A DNA stretch of 64,000 nt from Alphaproteobacteria bacterium. Lineage in GTDB: Bacteria; Pseudomonadota; Alphaproteobacteria; Micavibrionales; Micavibrionaceae. The stretch's first letter is position 1. Each line of letters opens with the position of its first letter. Location: assembly GCA_016794305.1 (NCBI GenBank), contig JAEUKN010000005.1:1-64000 (forward strand). Direction: 5' to 3'. The notes under the pieces were generated by a model. The model did not search any database. It saw nothing but the letters and a program-made list of their open reading frames with translations, and was not told the origin of the DNA. A program made the translations under genes and the position numbers. Shown one piece after another: positions 47,766 through 59,719 of the stretch.

Positions 47766-48170
47766 TTATCCGAGGTCTTTTTCAATTGTTTCCGATAATG
47801 TTTCATAAAGCTTTTTGATGGATTCGTAATAATCATAAACTCTTTCAGAAATTTCCGCAGCCTCTTTTTCCTTATAAGTGTGGGAGGTCAGATTCCTATC
47901 TTCAAGCATCTTCAGCCATATATTTTCATCGTCTATCAAATTCATGACAAAAGCTTTCTTAAATGCCTGACGAGGTGAGGGCGTTTCATGCCCGTATAAT
48001 TCAAGGATCGCCCGTAAGGATTTCCAGGATAATTCATAGCAAAACTCAAATCTCTGGATGATAGCATCAACGCGCCCCGTATGATTTCGCGGAACATCCA
48101 GAATTTCTTTCAAACGGGAGACAGTATTGTGCAGTTCGTCGACCCTCAATTTTGCTTTATCTGTTGTCAT
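47766..48170 (-). CDS. HEPN-domain protein, HepT/HI0074-like (putative type VII toxin)
   Basis: This 134-residue all-helical protein belongs to the HI0074-type HEPN family (IQRFEFCYELSWKSLR motif). It has the RX4HXY signature RNLTSHTY that forms the RNase site of HepT toxins. The ATG at 48170 gives the typical N-terminus. It overlaps the upstream MNT gene by 14 bp, so the two are translated together. In type VII systems the MNT partner inactivates HepT by adding AMP residues to the Tyr of this motif. The pair lies between dnaK and dnaJ. A second pair with the same motifs is at 56435-57123. Confidence 0.88.
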   Translation of the reverse strand: MTTDKAKLRVDELHNTVSRLKEILDVPRNHTGRVDAIIQRFEFCYELSWKSLRAILELYGHETPSPRQAFKKAFVMNLIDDENIWLKMLEDRNLTSHTYKEKEAAEISERVYDYYESIKKLYETLSETIEKDLG

Positions 48171-48513
48171 TGAGCACCTTCCCGTCTTTGAGAATATTTT
48201 CCCGAACCCGTCCTGTGGTTTCTTGAAGACAGACCAAATCAATTTCCAACAATGTCTGCGCATTTTCGACAGCCTGCATCATTGCATCCCAGGCCCTGAC
48301 ATCAAGCCCCCCCGGTACATCCACCGCCAAATCAATATCCGCGCGGGGCATATGATCCCCCCGCGCGCGTGAACCGTACAAAATGACCCGATCTGCACCA
48401 AGTTCGCCAAGCCGTGCCACCAGATCCGCCAGTGCCGGATGCACCAAAGCAGCGGAGATGCCGGGGAGCGGGGGAAATGGAGCAAGAGCATTTTTATCGC
48501 CGGCTTTTATCAT
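48157..48513 (-). CDS. MNT nucleotidyltransferase, MntA-like (putative type VII antitoxin)
   Basis: This 118-residue minimal nucleotidyltransferase carries the exact GSX10DXD signature (GSRARGDHMPRADID). A third carboxylate lies in LLEIDLVCLQ. It is HI0073-like. Its ATG starts directly after the dnaK stop codon (TAAATG), so it should be translated by ribosomes finishing dnaK. The HEPN gene follows with a 14-bp overlap. In this order (MNT first) the unit matches HI0073-HI0074. Its placement implies expression together with the heat-shock chaperones. Confidence 0.9.
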   Translation of the reverse strand: MIKAGDKNALAPFPPLPGISAALVHPALADLVARLGELGADRVILYGSRARGDHMPRADIDLAVDVPGGLDVRAWDAMMQAVENAQTLLEIDLVCLQETTGRVRENILKDGKVLNDNR

Positions 48514-50654: not shown

Positions 50655-50683
50655 ATGTAGGATAATTTTCCTATTTTGTCAAG
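50655..50683 (-). promoter_or_regulatory. Predicted heat-shock promoter of dnaK
   Basis: On the minus strand CTTG (50683-50680) is followed after 18 bp by CCTACAT (50661-50655), close to the alphaproteobacterial sigma-32 pattern CTTG-N17/18-CYTATNT. The same bases give TTGACA-N17-TACATT, a fair sigma-70 promoter. The leader would be about 150 nt. No CIRCE element was seen. The rest of the 50500-50833 gap shows nothing else definite. Confidence 0.5.
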
Positions 50684-54786: not shown

Positions 54787-55161
54787 ATGATTCCGCAAGA
54801 AAATTTCCTTATGCAATATCTGCCAATCCTTTTGTTTTTAGGGATTGCGGGGGTGTTGGCCACGGTGATGAGTTTGGTGCCGTTCGTGATTGGCAAGCTC
54901 AAGCCCGATTCGCAAAAACTCTCACCCTATGAATGCGGATTTGATGCATTTGACGATGCGCGCCATAAATTCGATGTGCGGTTTTATTTGGTCGCGATTT
55001 TGTTTATCATCTTTGACCTTGAGGTCGCATTTCTTTTTCCTTGGGCGGTTTCGTTGGGGCAAATCGGCCTTTTTGGCTTTTGGTCGATGATTGTTTTCCT
55101 CGGCGTGTTGACGGTTGGCCTGGTGTATGAATGGAATAAGGGTGCGCTCGATTGGGAGTAA
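54787..55161 (+). CDS. nuoA: NADH-quinone oxidoreductase subunit A
   Basis: This small membrane subunit of complex I has three membrane helices (residues 9-34, 65-85, 92-112). The conserved [20 protein letters not shown] loop lies between the first two. It has 124 residues. It starts a cluster with nuoB and nuoC, but a gene for a foreign-looking membrane protein lies between it and nuoB. A family C palindrome ends 46 bp upstream of the ATG, so it should be in the leader or promoter region. Confidence 0.95.
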
Positions 55162-55169
55162 AGATACAA

Positions 55170-55781
55170 ATGGAATCTGTGCCGAGCTTGAGATTTTATC
55201 CATCAGAGAAAGCATTTGTTAAGTGGACAATAATTGTACTTATTTGTGCGCCTTTTAGCCTTTTCACGTATTGGTTGAATCCTATAGGAACTGCCGTGCC
55301 TATAGCTCTAGGTATTCTGACGATCATTCTTGTTTTGTCAATGATAGAGTCTAATCCAAAATATTTACTTATTAAGAAAAAAAATAATTTGCTTCAGAAA
55401 TCTATTAATATCGGAATTGTAGTTGGATGTGTTGGCTATTTTTTCAGTGCAATAGGTATTCTTTCGAGGAATGCAATGATTTTTTCTTTAGGGGGGATAA
55501 ATAATATAGTAGATATTGTTCTGGTGAAATGTTCTTTGTCGATGGCTTATATTTTGATGAAAATGGACGTTTCGGTGAGAATTGTAAATATTGAAGAGCT
55601 AAACAAAGCCCTGGAGAGTGAGAGCTATTTATTTCAGCAATTTTTCGTGTATATTACGACCGTTATTGATGGATTACTTCATTCTATTATTTTAGCTTTT
55701 TTGTGTGGGATCATATATTTTATAATGTCTTGTTTGCGAGTTAGGAAAGAAAATTTGCGAGTTAGGAAAGAAAATGAGTAG
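55170..55781 (+). CDS. Hypothetical integral membrane protein inserted between nuoA and nuoB
   Basis: No family is recognised. This protein of about 203 residues has roughly five membrane segments (first near residues 18-40, last near 165-190). The DNA is clearly more AT-rich than nuoA and nuoB. The ATG at 55170 is 8 bp after the nuoA stop; a TTG at 55152 overlapping nuoA is also in frame. The last 14 residues ([14 protein letters not shown]) are encoded by a tandem repeat of about 21 bp. Its stop codon overlaps the nuoB start by 8 bp. Nothing links it to complex I by sequence, so it may be an insertion. Confidence 0.7.
55736..55777. repeat. Tandem duplication of the nuoB ribosome-site region
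   Basis: GCGAGTTAGGAAAGAAAA occurs twice, 21 bp apart. The second copy provides the AGGAAAG ribosome site of nuoB. The first lies inside the membrane-protein gene. Confidence 0.8.
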
Positions 55782-56349
55782 TCACCGTGAAGTGTTTAAG
55801 GCTCCGCAGGTACCGCTGCAAACCAATGTTCCAATCATCCCGGCGGTTCAGCAGGATGAAGCCGTGGCGAAATTGGCGCAAGAGGTTACGGATAAGGGGT
55901 TTGTCCTAACCCAGGCCGATAAATTGTTCGATTGGGCGCGCCAAGGGTCGATGTGGCCCATGACTTTTGGGCTGGCGTGCTGCGCGGTTGAAATGATCCA
56001 TTCCTACATGTCGCGTTATGACCTTGACCGATTCGGGATTATTCCGCGCCCCTCTCCAAGGCAATCGGATGTGATGATTGTGGCGGGAACGCTCACCAAT
56101 AAAATGGCTCCGGCACTGCGCCGCGTCTATGATCAAATGGCCGAACCGCGATGGGTGATTTCCATGGGGTCTTGCGCCAATGGTGGCGGGTATTACCATT
56201 ACAGCTATTCCGTGGTGCGCGGGTGTGATCGTATAGTACCCGTGGATATTTATGTGCCCGGTTGTCCACCAACGGCGGAGGCTCTGGTTTACGGGCTCTT
56301 GCAACTACAGAAAAAAATCCGCCGCGAAGATACGCGGATTGTGAGGTGA
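55774..56349 (+). CDS. nuoB: NADH-quinone oxidoreductase subunit B
   Basis: This peripheral-arm subunit of complex I holds the terminal [4Fe-4S] cluster N2. The ligands are in the family motifs: the tandem cysteines in GLACCAVEM, the Cys in [10 protein letters not shown] and in [11 protein letters not shown]. It has 191 residues with an unconserved N-terminal stretch of about 35 residues before the core. It overlaps the preceding membrane-protein gene by 8 bp and is followed by an MNT-HEPN pair and not directly by nuoC. Confidence 0.96.
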
Positions 56350-56434: not shown

Positions 56435-56734
56435 GTGACTGAGGATTTTTTGCCCCCCGGCATTGTGGGCTTGCTGGATGATATAAAATCCATTCCGGCG
56501 GTTAATCAAATTATATTATACGGATCACGGGCGAGGGGGGATGCTGCACAGCGTTCGGATTATGATCTGGCGATTGATGCGCCGGATTTATCTGAGCAAG
56601 ATTGGGATAAGATATATTGGATGGTTGAGGATGCGGAGACACTTTATAAAATAGACTGTGTTTGGCTTCAAAAGTCCGGCAGTTCTCTGCGGGCTAATAT
56701 TTTAAGGGACGCAAAGGTTCTGTTTCAACGATGA
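56435..56734 (+). CDS. MNT nucleotidyltransferase, MntA-like (second copy)
   Basis: This 99-residue minimal nucleotidyltransferase has the GSX10DXD motif (GSRARGDAAQRSDYD) and a third carboxylate in YKIDCVWLQ. It is a paralogue of the one at 48157, sharing GSRARGD and the layout, but it is shorter at the N-terminus. It starts with GTG at 56435 after an AGGAA site. Its end overlaps the HEPN gene start by four bases (ATGA). The pair sits between nuoB and nuoC on the same strand. Confidence 0.9.
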   Translation: MTEDFLPPGIVGLLDDIKSIPAVNQIILYGSRARGDAAQRSDYDLAIDAPDLSEQDWDKIYWMVEDAETLYKIDCVWLQKSGSSLRANILRDAKVLFQR

Positions 56735-57123
56735 TGGCAAAATTGCAGACTGATTTTGAGAAGCTGGAAAAATCTATGACTCAGTTGAAAAAGATGTTGG
56801 CATTACCGACTGATCATGAGGGTCGGAGGGAGGCTGTCATCCAATGCTTTGAATTTGTGGTTGAACTGAATTGGAAATTGTTCAAACATATACTGGCGGA
56901 AAAAGATGTCATCGCGAATACGCCGCGTGACGTATTTAAAGAGGCCTTTGCGATCGGATGGATTGATAATGAGGAGATGTGGATCAGAATGATAAAAGAT
57001 AGAAATCTGTCCTCGCACACTTACAATGAGGATCTAGCCAATGAAATTTTAGGACGGATTCCAACCTATACGCCCATGATTGAAAAAACATTTGAGACAT
57101 TAAAACGGATTGCAGAAAAATGA
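56731..57123 (+). CDS. HEPN-domain protein, HepT/HI0074-like (second copy)
   Basis: This 130-residue helical protein has the family start IQCFEFVVELNWKL and the RX4HXY motif RNLSSHTY, as in the first copy at 47766. The two paralogues share the motif blocks but differ elsewhere, so they were not duplicated recently. The start codon overlaps the MNT stop codon. It ends 68 bp before nuoC. As in type VII systems, the expected role is RNase toxin held inactive by the MNT partner. Confidence 0.88.
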   Translation: MMAKLQTDFEKLEKSMTQLKKMLALPTDHEGRREAVIQCFEFVVELNWKLFKHILAEKDVIANTPRDVFKEAFAIGWIDNEEMWIRMIKDRNLSSHTYNEDLANEILGRIPTYTPMIEKTFETLKRIAEK

Positions 57124-57191: not shown

Positions 57192-57896
57192 ATGACATCA
57201 GAACCTATAGACTCAGCGAATGCCGCGGACCCAAAAGACCTGATCCCCGTTTTGACATTGGGGCAGGCATTGCAGGAAAAAATGCCGGAGGCGGTTGAGT
57301 CCTATGAACTTGATCACGGCGAGCTGATCGTACGCGTGCGTAAGGAGGGCTTAACGGATGTGATGGCCTTTTTGCGCGATGATCCGAATTGCCGATTTGC
57401 GCAATTGATGGATATTTGCGGGGTAGATTATCCCGAACGCGCCTTGCGGTTTGATGTCGTGTATCAATTGCTTTCGCTCAAATACAATATGCGCGCGCGG
57501 ATTAAGGTGGCAACAGATGATAAAACCCCGATCCCAAGCGTATCCGGGCTTTTTAACTCTGCCCCGTGGTTTGAACGAGAGGCATGGGATCTCTTTGGGA
57601 TTATGTTTGACGGGCTCGCTGATCACCGCCGCATCTTAACCGATTACGGGTTTGACGGCCATCCGTTGCGCAAGGATTTCCCGCTCACGGGGCATGTGGA
57701 GGTGCATTACGATGATGAAGCCAAACGTGTGGTGTATGCGCCCGTAACCCTCCCGCAAGATTTTCGTGTGTTTGATAATTTAAGCCCGTGGGAAGCCATG
57801 ACCGATGTGCAATTACCCGGCGATGAAAAGGCCGGCGAAAACCCGCATATGCCCAAAATCGGATGGCAGCCTGTTGCTAAGTCGCAAACTGAGTAA
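57192..57896 (+). CDS. nuoC: NADH-quinone oxidoreductase subunit C
   Basis: This peripheral-arm subunit of complex I has the 30-kDa signature ERE(A)WDLFGIMF in [20 protein letters not shown] and the following [20 protein letters not shown]. It has 234 residues. The ATG follows GAGGATAG. It is followed not by nuoD but by dnaX, 14 bp later, so the remaining nuo genes must be elsewhere. Confidence 0.95.
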
Positions 57897-57910
57897 TTTG
57901 AGAGTATGTG

Positions 57911-59719
57911 ATGAGTGATTCCCCCTTTGCGGCCCAGAACTCTGAAGCAGATGACCAAATCTACCGCGTATTGGCGCGCAAATATCGGCCGCAGAATTTT
58001 GATCAATTGATCGGGCAGGATGCGCTGGTCCGCACACTCAAAAACGCCATTAGTTCGGGCCGCATTGCCCATGCCTTTATGCTCACGGGGGTGCGCGGTG
58101 TGGGGAAAACCACGACGGCGCGCATTATTGCCAAGGCCCTGAACTATACCGGTGCGGATGGCACGGCCGGCCCCACCACTGGCCCCACCGATGATTGCGA
58201 AACCTGCCGCGCCATTGCCCAGGACCGCCACCCCGATGTCATGGAAATGGATGCGGCGTCACGGACGGGGATTAATGATATTCGTGAAATTCTTGATGGC
58301 GTGCGCTATGCGCCGATTTCCGCGCGGTATAAGGTTTATATCATTGATGAAGTGCATATGCTCTCCACCTCCGCGTTTAACGCGCTGCTCAAAACTTTGG
58401 AGGAACCGCCGCCCCATGTGAAATTTATTTTTGCGACGACCGAAATTCGTAAGGTGCCGGTGACGGTGCTCTCTCGCTGTCAACGCTTTGATTTGCGCCG
58501 CGTGGATGTTGAAATGCTCTCGGCCCATTATGCTAAGGTCTGTGAGGCTGAGGGCATGGCGGCGGAGTTTGAGGCCATTGCCATGATTGCCCGCGCGGCT
58601 GACGGGTCTGTGCGTGACGGGTTGAGCATTTTGGACCAGGCAATGGCGTTGGGGGACGGAGCCCTGATCACCGCGGATCAGGTGCGGCAGATGTTGGGGC
58701 TGGCGGACCGCAGCCAATTGCTGGATTTGGTGGAATTTATCCTCGGCGGGGACGCCGCAAAATCGCTGGGGTTGATGGCGGATTTGTACCGCGCCGGGGC
58801 CGATGCGCAATCTGTGTTACAAGATATTTTGGACATTACCCATTTAATGACCAAATTCGTCAGTATTTCTGCGCCGCCCGTCACGGTGGAGCCCAATATG
58901 GCAGAGCGGGAGCGCACCCGCGCGGCGGAAATGGCCAAAAAGACCGGTATTGCGCAACTCACCCGCATTTGGCAAATCTTGCTCAAGGGGTTGGGGGAAA
59001 TCGCCCATGCGCCCAACCCGCAATCGGCGGCGGAAATGGTGGTGATTCGGTTGATTTATAGTGGCACACTCCCTGATCCCGGCAGCATTATCAAACAGCT
59101 CAAGGACGGGAGCTTGTCGGTTTCGGCCACAATATCCGGGGGCGCAGGTGCCGCAGGTGGGGGCGCTTCAGGCGGGGCAGGGGGCTTTAGCGGTTTAGGG
59201 GGGGGTGGACTCTCTCGCTCCCCCCAAATCAATATGCCGGGTCACTATTCCGGGGGCGCCGTCCAGGGTGGAGTAACACAGGCTGGAGTAACACAGGGCG
59301 GGGCCAAGATGATGCCGCACCACGCCCATGAAAATTTACCGCTGGCGGTTGCCAATAATAATTTGGGGACTTTGGCGGATGTCGTGGCGTTACTGGAGCA
59401 AAACGGGGCGATGAGCCTGGCCGCGCAAATCGTGCATCATATGGAATTGGTAAAACTGGATCGTGAAGTGATTGAATTTCGGCCCACGGCGGATGCTGAT
59501 AAAAACCTCGCGCACTCTTTGGGCAAAAAATTGCTGGATATCACCGGGCGGCGTTGGATGATTGTCAGTTCCAATTTCGCGCCCAATGCCGCACCCACTT
59601 TGGCGGTTCAGGCCGCGCAGGCACAAGATAAACTGATGGCCGAGATCATCGCTGACCCTGTGATTGCAAGAGTTCTGGCGGCCTTTCCTCTCTCAAAAAT
59701 TGAGATTGTGGAGGGGTAG
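57911..59719 (+). CDS. dnaX: DNA polymerase III subunits gamma/tau
   Basis: This clamp-loader ATPase has Walker A in GVRGVGKTTTARI, a DEVHMLS Walker B, the sensor arginine region and the C-terminal domain III. Of the four zinc-finger cysteines of the E. coli protein only the last two (CETC) are kept; a similar loss occurs in other alphaproteobacteria. A Gly-rich linker lies near residues 412-440, with a tandem GVTQAGVTQGG nearby. At 602 residues it fits tau of this group. The end overlaps the convergent dapA by 74 bp. Only a weak GAGAG precedes the ATG. Confidence 0.95.
   Translation: MSDSPFAAQNSEADDQIYRVLARKYRPQNFDQLIGQDALVRTLKNAISSGRIAHAFMLTGVRGVGKTTTARIIAKALNYTGADGTAGPTTGPTDDCETCRAIAQDRHPDVMEMDAASRTGINDIREILDGVRYAPISARYKVYIIDEVHMLSTSAFNALLKTLEEPPPHVKFIFATTEIRKVPVTVLSRCQRFDLRRVDVEMLSAHYAKVCEAEGMAAEFEAIAMIARAADGSVRDGLSILDQAMALGDGALITADQVRQMLGLADRSQLLDLVEFILGGDAAKSLGLMADLYRAGADAQSVLQDILDITHLMTKFVSISAPPVTVEPNMAERERTRAAEMAKKTGIAQLTRIWQILLKGLGEIAHAPNPQSAAEMVVIRLIYSGTLPDPGSIIKQLKDGSLSVSATISGGAGAAGGGASGGAGGFSGLGGGGLSRSPQINMPGHYSGGAVQGGVTQAGVTQGGAKMMPHHAHENLPLAVANNNLGTLADVVALLEQNGAMSLAAQIVHHMELVKLDREVIEFRPTADADKNLAHSLGKKLLDITGRRWMIVSSNFAPNAAPTLAVQAAQAQDKLMAEIIADPVIARVLAAFPLSKIEIVEG

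Follow-up and report, generated by a model that had tools for sequence, protein, structure and literature searches.

A putative toxin–antitoxin pair between dnaK and dnaJ belongs to a pattern of MNT–HEPN modules in core operons of an alphaproteobacterial order

Why should a gene pair with the marks of a toxin–antitoxin module lie inside the operon of the main chaperones? The question is raised by a 64,000-nucleotide stretch of an alphaproteobacterial genome of the order Micavibrionales (contig JAEUKN010000005.1, genome G000; hereafter "the window"), whose minus strand carries, in this order, dnaK (50499–48514), a gene for a minimal nucleotidyltransferase (MNT, 118 aa, 48513–48157), a gene for a HEPN protein (134 aa, 48170–47766), dnaJ (47746–46583) and dapB (46543–45782). 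The identities of dnaK (HSP70, PF00012, 2e-273), dnaJ (DnaJ domains) and dapB are backed by Pfam, and the two genes between the chaperone genes encode a putative adenylylating antitoxin and a putative RNase toxin, respectively. The MNT ATG directly abuts the dnaK stop codon TAA (TAAATG; junction CGCGCCTAAATGATAAAAG), the MNT and HEPN genes overlap by 14 bp (junction GGGAAGGTGCTCAATGACAACAGATAAAG), with a Shine-Dalgarno-like AAGGTG within the MNT gene upstream of the HEPN ATG, and the HEPN stop codon is followed after 19 bp by the start of dnaJ (junction GGATAAATAACGGATCTAGAATCACATGAGC). The HEPN start was placed at the ATG at 48170; a longer open reading frame runs from 48263. An earlier note on this DNA had given the coordinates, the motifs, the TAAATG abutment, the overlap and the 19-bp gap exactly to the base, and its reading of an MNT–HEPN pair with type VII (HepT/MntA) signature residues inside dnaK–dnaJ is borne out by the protein families and motifs described below.

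The HEPN protein, of the HI0074-type nucleotidyltransferase substrate-binding fold, was assigned to NTase_sub_bind (PF08780, E 5e-33) and passes the curated cut-off of the HI0074 model TIGR01987 (103.2 bits against 55.8). PF08780 was the only family that Pfam reported for it, with no match to PF01934 (HepT proper), and the locus found in this genome by the order-wide PF01934 search is a different one. The MNT protein matches Polbeta (PF18765, E 4e-13) and NTP_transf_2 (PF01909, E 2e-8) in Pfam; its score against the NCBIfam equivalog MntA_antitoxin (NF047752), 46.1 bits, is under the cut-off of 60, and it is therefore classed not as an MntA equivalog but simply as an MNT that shares the mechanism class. 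Its catalytic motif is G47-S48-X10-D59-X-D61 (residues 47–61). The HEPN motif R92-X4-H97-X-Y99 reads R92-N-L-T-S-H97-T-Y99, and Q39 and E42 align with the catalytic metal-site residues Q44 and E47 of a Legionella homologue. The question of the HEPN fold is answered by solved homologues matched with phmmer, namely TTHA0048 (1wty, 2e-23), the Legionella toxin (8xdj, 1e-12) and HI0074 (1jog, 2e-7). The features of type VII class I HEPN/MNT modules (PF01934 or PF08780 with PF01909) are thus present: adjacent co-directional genes of the named families, with GSX10DXD in the MNT and RX4HXY in the HEPN. Those of the autoregulated type II class were not found, as there is no intergenic space or promoter-like site before the MNT gene and no DNA-binding domain family was detected by Pfam. 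To judge from its residues, the predicted pair possesses everything that the AMPylation mechanism would require.

Experimental work on related systems indicates how such a pair might function. The toxin-side family (PF08780/TIGR01987) and the MNT partner are shared with HI0073/HI0074 of Haemophilus influenzae, where the fold of the partner HI0073 is represented by 1no5, and with TTHA0048 of Thermus; unlike these, the window pair is located inside the dnaK–dnaJ operon, flush with the dnaK stop codon. The HEPN–MNT pair of Legionella pneumophila (8xdj, 8xeh) has the same HEPN family, the Q/E metal site and a tyrosine of the AMPylated type, although the window pair is distant from it in sequence. 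In the Legionella toxin, Q44 and E47 form a metal-dependent RNase site, R98 and H103 are of minor importance in vitro, and Y105 is AMPylated (PMC11586414). The closest HEPN found (52% identical; locus L096, 4977–5390, + strand) reads RNLTSRTY, with R in place of the motif His and the Q/E metal site kept, a change in line with the minor role of R98 and H103 in Legionella. The HepT/MntA pair of Shewanella oneidensis (SO_3166/SO_3165) resembles the window pair in its two motifs, its MNT-then-HEPN order and its overlapping genes, and differs in that its HEPN belongs to PF01934 and its own promoter is bound and weakly repressed by MntA; mutation of the motif R or H abolished toxicity there (PMC4621449). 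Shewanella MntA adds AMP units to the tyrosine of RX4HXY by means of GSX10DXD, which blocks the RNase, and PF08780 pairs have been counted in type VII class I (PMC7641770).

The setting of the pair was compared with the same junction in ten congeners (G001–G010). The strongest promoter candidate is TTGACA-N17-TACATT upstream of dnaK at 50683–50654 (minus strand), a putative promoter of the dnaK operon (CTTGACA-N17-TACATT) that agrees with the sigma-70 consensus at 10 of 12 positions and also has a heat-shock-like consensus; the latter (CTTG-N18-CYTAYNT) has its sole match in the window here, with 0.24 expected. Between dnaK and dnaJ, no spacer before the MNT gene, no terminator and no internal promoter above chance were found. 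None of the resolved congener dnaK–dnaJ junctions carries an MNT–HEPN pair: the spacer is short (81–127 bp) in six congeners (G002, G004, G005, G007, G009 and G010) and 399–494 bp long with a small J-domain gene in the other four (G001, G003, G006 and G008). Each of four short congener spacers that were folded contains a hairpin (z -4.2, -5.5, -2.5 and -2.2), and no hairpin was found on folding the window junctions (z 0.6 and 0.4). The module thus occupies the position that an intercistronic hairpin or a J-domain gene holds in congeners. In Salmonella, the region between dnaK and dnaJ has been implicated in regulating the two genes separately (PMC12077118). Many relatives (congeners, loci L018, L019, L020 and L038; family and order, L028, L037 and L041) have a gene for a small J-domain protein of about 100–135 aa at this junction, which is absent from the window.

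A search of the genome itself revealed a second pair in the window (56435–57123, + strand), which the earlier note did not mention. It consists of an MNT gene (99 aa, GTG start, 56435–56734) with GSX10DXD intact and 46% identity to the first MNT, and an HI0074-type HEPN gene (130 aa, 56731–57123) with RNLSSHTY intact and 45% identity to the first HEPN. This pair is located between nuoB (55774–56349, + strand) and nuoC (57192–57896, + strand), identified from the sequence and from the gene order of relatives, in most of which nuoB and nuoC adjoin. Elsewhere in this genome, a HepT/MntA pair together with a SIMPL (DUF541) gene was found between rpoB and rpoC (L247, contig C74, 4989–6394, - strand), the toxin of this module being a canonical HepT (PF01934). 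Searches with MNT domains gave four MNT genes in total; the fourth (L293, contig C110), in the first 500 bases at the edge of its contig, overlaps the start of a fadB-like gene, and its partner was possibly lost to the contig end. From their positions, each of the four lies just upstream of a core gene, in the same orientation. The nuo region of the window is itself unusual: a 209-aa protein, apparently a membrane protein with no Pfam match, is encoded between nuoA and nuoB with overlapping ends (55152–55781, + strand), and dnaX instead of nuoD follows directly after nuoC (57192–59719, + strand), so that this genome has a rearranged nuo operon.

Related modules were then sought among relatives, in genomes that are mostly drafts and with genes called by simple ORF rules; host gene names are backed by family models, with scpB and the restriction operon named by sequence reading and atpG and groEL read by eye. 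PF08780 matches were obtained in 11 of the 142 genomes of the order searched. The earlier note had proposed looking for its gene order in related genomes: the order is missing from the resolved congeners and recurs in G028 as dnaK-GNAT-MNT-HEPN-dnaJ, which the tree described below places as an independent insertion. The other modules have the orders SBP-MNT-HEPN-nuoC (G007; related to the window nuo pair, behind a solute-binding protein gene), fabI-HEPN-MNT-thioesterase (G007), carA-MNT-HEPN-carB (G027), sucC-HEPN-MNT-two ORFs-sucD (G003), sucC-HEPN-MNT-sucD (G089), sdhA-MNT-HEPN-sdhB (G103), Band 7 (stomatin-like) gene-HEPN-MNT-NfeD (G026) and pyk-MNT-HEPN (G059). Of the remaining modules, that of G044 is in a restriction operon, that of G036 is interrupted by stop codons, one in G089 is located between a scpB-like gene and tatC, and another in G089 (contig C62) has a less clear setting. 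The PF01934 HepT modules of the order lie between rpoB and rpoC in three genera, between pntAB and pntB in two and between fadA and a fadB-like gene in one (G002), with further modules before lepA and before a ychF-like gene. In the wider class, modules were found between carA and carB (G251, another family), between pdhB and pdhC, coxA and ctaB, and gyrB and idi (G146, the latter two with fused MNT and HEPN), between atpG and atpD (G477), before groES–groEL and after lipA (G143), and after glyA (G284). The catalytic motifs are intact in nearly all modules compared. A protein scan of genome contigs with the window HEPN returned one distant clostridial locus alone.

These sister modules in nuo, car, suc, sdh and rpo operons indicate that the common denominator of the sites is the core operon, not heat shock. 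The proposal of the earlier note that coupling to the chaperone operon is a special adaptive feature is accordingly not supported, in view both of the absence of the pair from the resolved congener junctions and of the modules at nuoB/nuoC, carA/carB, sucC/sucD, sdhA/sdhB and rpoB/rpoC; the idea of dnaK–dnaJ as the specific, conserved home of the pair was rejected for the same absence and because the second known case is independent. A better fit is the alternative allowed by the note, in which the pair inserted without any adaptive tie to its host operon, amended in two points: modules of this class insert in this way repeatedly, and purifying selection acts on the nuo copy. The pair is an ordinary protein pair in an unusual place, and the place belongs to a pattern.

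The pattern was quantified by a single automatic rule, under which a module is nested if both neighbors are co-directional and within 120 bp. In the order, 10 of 14 PF08780 modules and 6 of 12 HepT modules are nested, together 16 of 26 MNT–HEPN modules, against 0 of 23 ParE/RelE modules (Fisher P 1.7e-6). Relative to a base rate of about 44%, taken from the window alone (24 of its 54 junctions co-directional and tight), the MNT–HEPN excess is modest (P 0.06), and the ParE deficit has P 1e-6. Canonical partner genes (rpoB/C, nuoB/C, carA/B, sucC/D, sdhA/B, pnt and dnaK/J) are split by 15 of the 26 modules of the order, which corresponds to P 3e-9 to 3e-5 given an assumed 10 to 20% share of such junctions, where the list of canonical partners is our own judgement and modules at shared sites (rpoB/rpoC, pnt) may be non-independent events. 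Four of the 15 have extra genes alongside (L071, L072, L075 and L247), and the fadA/fadB case includes a 262-bp gap. This enrichment at canonical partner junctions is the sole strong excess over random insertion. In a phylum sample, nesting was observed in 9 of 25 modules, near the base rate, so that a strong habit is established for the order and, less formally, for the class; the same figure led us to drop any extension of the claim to the phylum as a whole. SBP_bac_3-like solute-binding genes and a DUF559-like gene also lie inside congener nuo operons (L043, L045, L051 and L052), and since genes for such proteins, GNAT and SIMPL occur in core operons of this clade as well, the habit may in part be a property of the genomes rather than of the modules.

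In a tree of the HEPN proteins, the dnaK/dnaJ module of the window is joined to the module that G089 has at its scpB/tatC site (97/92), and that of G028 to the two nuo modules (99/95); these separate placements imply that insertion between dnaK and dnaJ occurred at least twice. Modules at nuoB/nuoC, sucC/sucD (100/100) and carA/carB (100/99) cluster by site, so that both recurrence and inheritance or co-transfer occur, and the view that same-site modules are always independent was rejected. Comparison of the nuo module between G000 and G007 gave dN/dS values of 0.19 for the MNT and about 0.09, at near-saturated dS, for the HEPN, indicating purifying selection; these figures cover the nuo copy, and no close orthologue of the dnaK–dnaJ copy was found at its site. 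At the nuo site, synonymous divergence is lower in the MNT gene (pS 0.44) than in nuoC (0.82), a hint of later exchange, with the MNT gene at nuoB/nuoC appearing younger. Insertion ages are otherwise unreadable because synonymous changes are almost saturated at most of the sites.

The pair is probably a type VII class I (HEPN/MNT, HI0074-type) addiction module, with no promoter of its own seen, that resides as a guest in a core operon, and it is within this reading that we infer co-transcription, toxicity, AMPylation and selfish benefit. The MNT and HEPN genes would most likely be transcribed by read-through from the dnaK promoter, with translation coupled from the MNT ATG on the dnaK stop codon through the 14-bp overlap with its AAGGTG and then to dnaJ. 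The HEPN protein would be a metal-dependent RNase, with its site at Q39/E42 and RX4HXY beside it, and would be silenced when the MNT protein AMPylates Tyr99 using ATP; if the MNT were lost or unable to act, the RNase would be freed. A position between near-indispensable genes would ensure constant expression, and deletion or silencing would harm dnaJ, which makes persistence by addiction plus entrenchment the most likely reason for the presence of the pair. Once inside the operon, the module could be lost only by an exact event if the core gene were not to be damaged. ParE/RelE type II systems rely on autoregulated promoters, whereas an antitoxin enzyme that is made together with its toxin and has no recognised DNA-binding domain could thrive inside a strong constitutive operon. 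A guest of this kind explains why core operons are preferred, why the junctions are seamless and why ParE/RelE modules behave differently, and no tie to chaperones is needed. The promoter of the Shewanella pair implies that the habit is not a family-wide rule (PMC4621449).

Other explanations place the benefit in the host operon. If heat shock raised MNT and HEPN together with DnaK and DnaJ, the RNase might slow translation while the chaperones clear aggregates, and in support of such coupling one may cite the heat-shock-like promoter upstream of dnaK, the independent module at the same junction in G028, the groES–groEL neighbor in G143 and a published speculation that MNT–HEPN arrest buys time for chaperones (PMC3710099). 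We nevertheless regard it as unlikely, given that the resolved congener junctions are empty of the pair, that the same class occupies nuo, car, suc and sdh operons without a heat-shock tie, and that the G028 module is sister to the nuo modules and not to that of the window. Many of the genes in the host operons are linked to energy or ATP (nuo, sdh, suc, pdh, cox, atp and pnt) and the Legionella MNT is ATP-dependent (PMC11586414), which would suit a local energy sensor in which a drop in ATP leaves HEPN un-AMPylated to cut the mRNA of the host operon, or mRNA generally, and so matches costly operons to ATP. However, the same operons also rank with the best conserved and most strongly expressed of all, the Legionella HEPN has been reported to cut RNA non-specifically (PMC11586414), cis targeting has left no sign, and a patchy presence within the genus speaks against a built-in regulator, so that this proposal appears improbable.

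Two further readings dispense with any tie to the host genes. Some modules of the class appear to sit in type I restriction operons (L078, L158 and L163) and the MNT has weak PADLOC matches, to the candidate defence family PDC-S09 alone, from which one might suppose that the pair serves defence, against phages or otherwise, and is maintained in an operon with constitutive expression; the nested modules, however, have no defence neighbors, the HEPN has no PADLOC match, and we give this idea little credence. That the pair is a functionless chance insertion, which is tolerated for being in phase and co-directional and is now heading for decay, seems more doubtful still: its patchy distribution in the genus and the general entry of accessory genes into core operons of the clade would be expected, but catalytic motifs preserved almost throughout, purifying selection on the nuo pair and the absence of nested ParE modules (0 of 23) in the same order argue against it.

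The guest reading may be extended beyond this locus. Toxin–antitoxin pairs are usually described as self-regulated and as residing in islands or on plasmids. A more speculative possibility, which we put forward tentatively, is that the type VII modules of the order follow a distinct selfish lifestyle, as promoterless addiction pairs that persist by fitting without a seam between the subunit genes of operons essential to the cell, rpoB/rpoC among them, and that may spread from one relative to another by recombination through highly conserved flanks. If the class lives mainly in essential operons, different rules would govern how much of it is made, how often it is lost and how it affects core genes, and the persistence of chromosomal toxin–antitoxin pairs without obvious benefit would become testable; annotators should also be aware that such guests can alter polarity and stoichiometry in rpoBC, nuo or dnaKJ. 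A published precedent exists in Thermus thermophilus HB8, in which an MNT–HEPN module is inserted in a lysine biosynthetic operon and is absent from strain HB27 (Makarova 2009, PMC2701414). That report is a single anecdote arguing for mobility and contains no general pattern, core subunit operons or comparison of toxin families, and beyond it no report of MNT–HEPN modules separating rpoB from rpoC, or located in operons of housekeeping or essential genes, was found in the open-licence literature. One operon insertion had been published in 2009, and the general core-operon pattern is likely to be new.

Fusions of the two proteins were also encountered. HEPN domains of fused proteins are described as typically lacking catalytic residues; the single-chain MNT–HEPN proteins of about 235–245 aa seen here (L141, L142, L146, L152 and L155) keep both a GSX10DXD-like and an RX4HXY motif.
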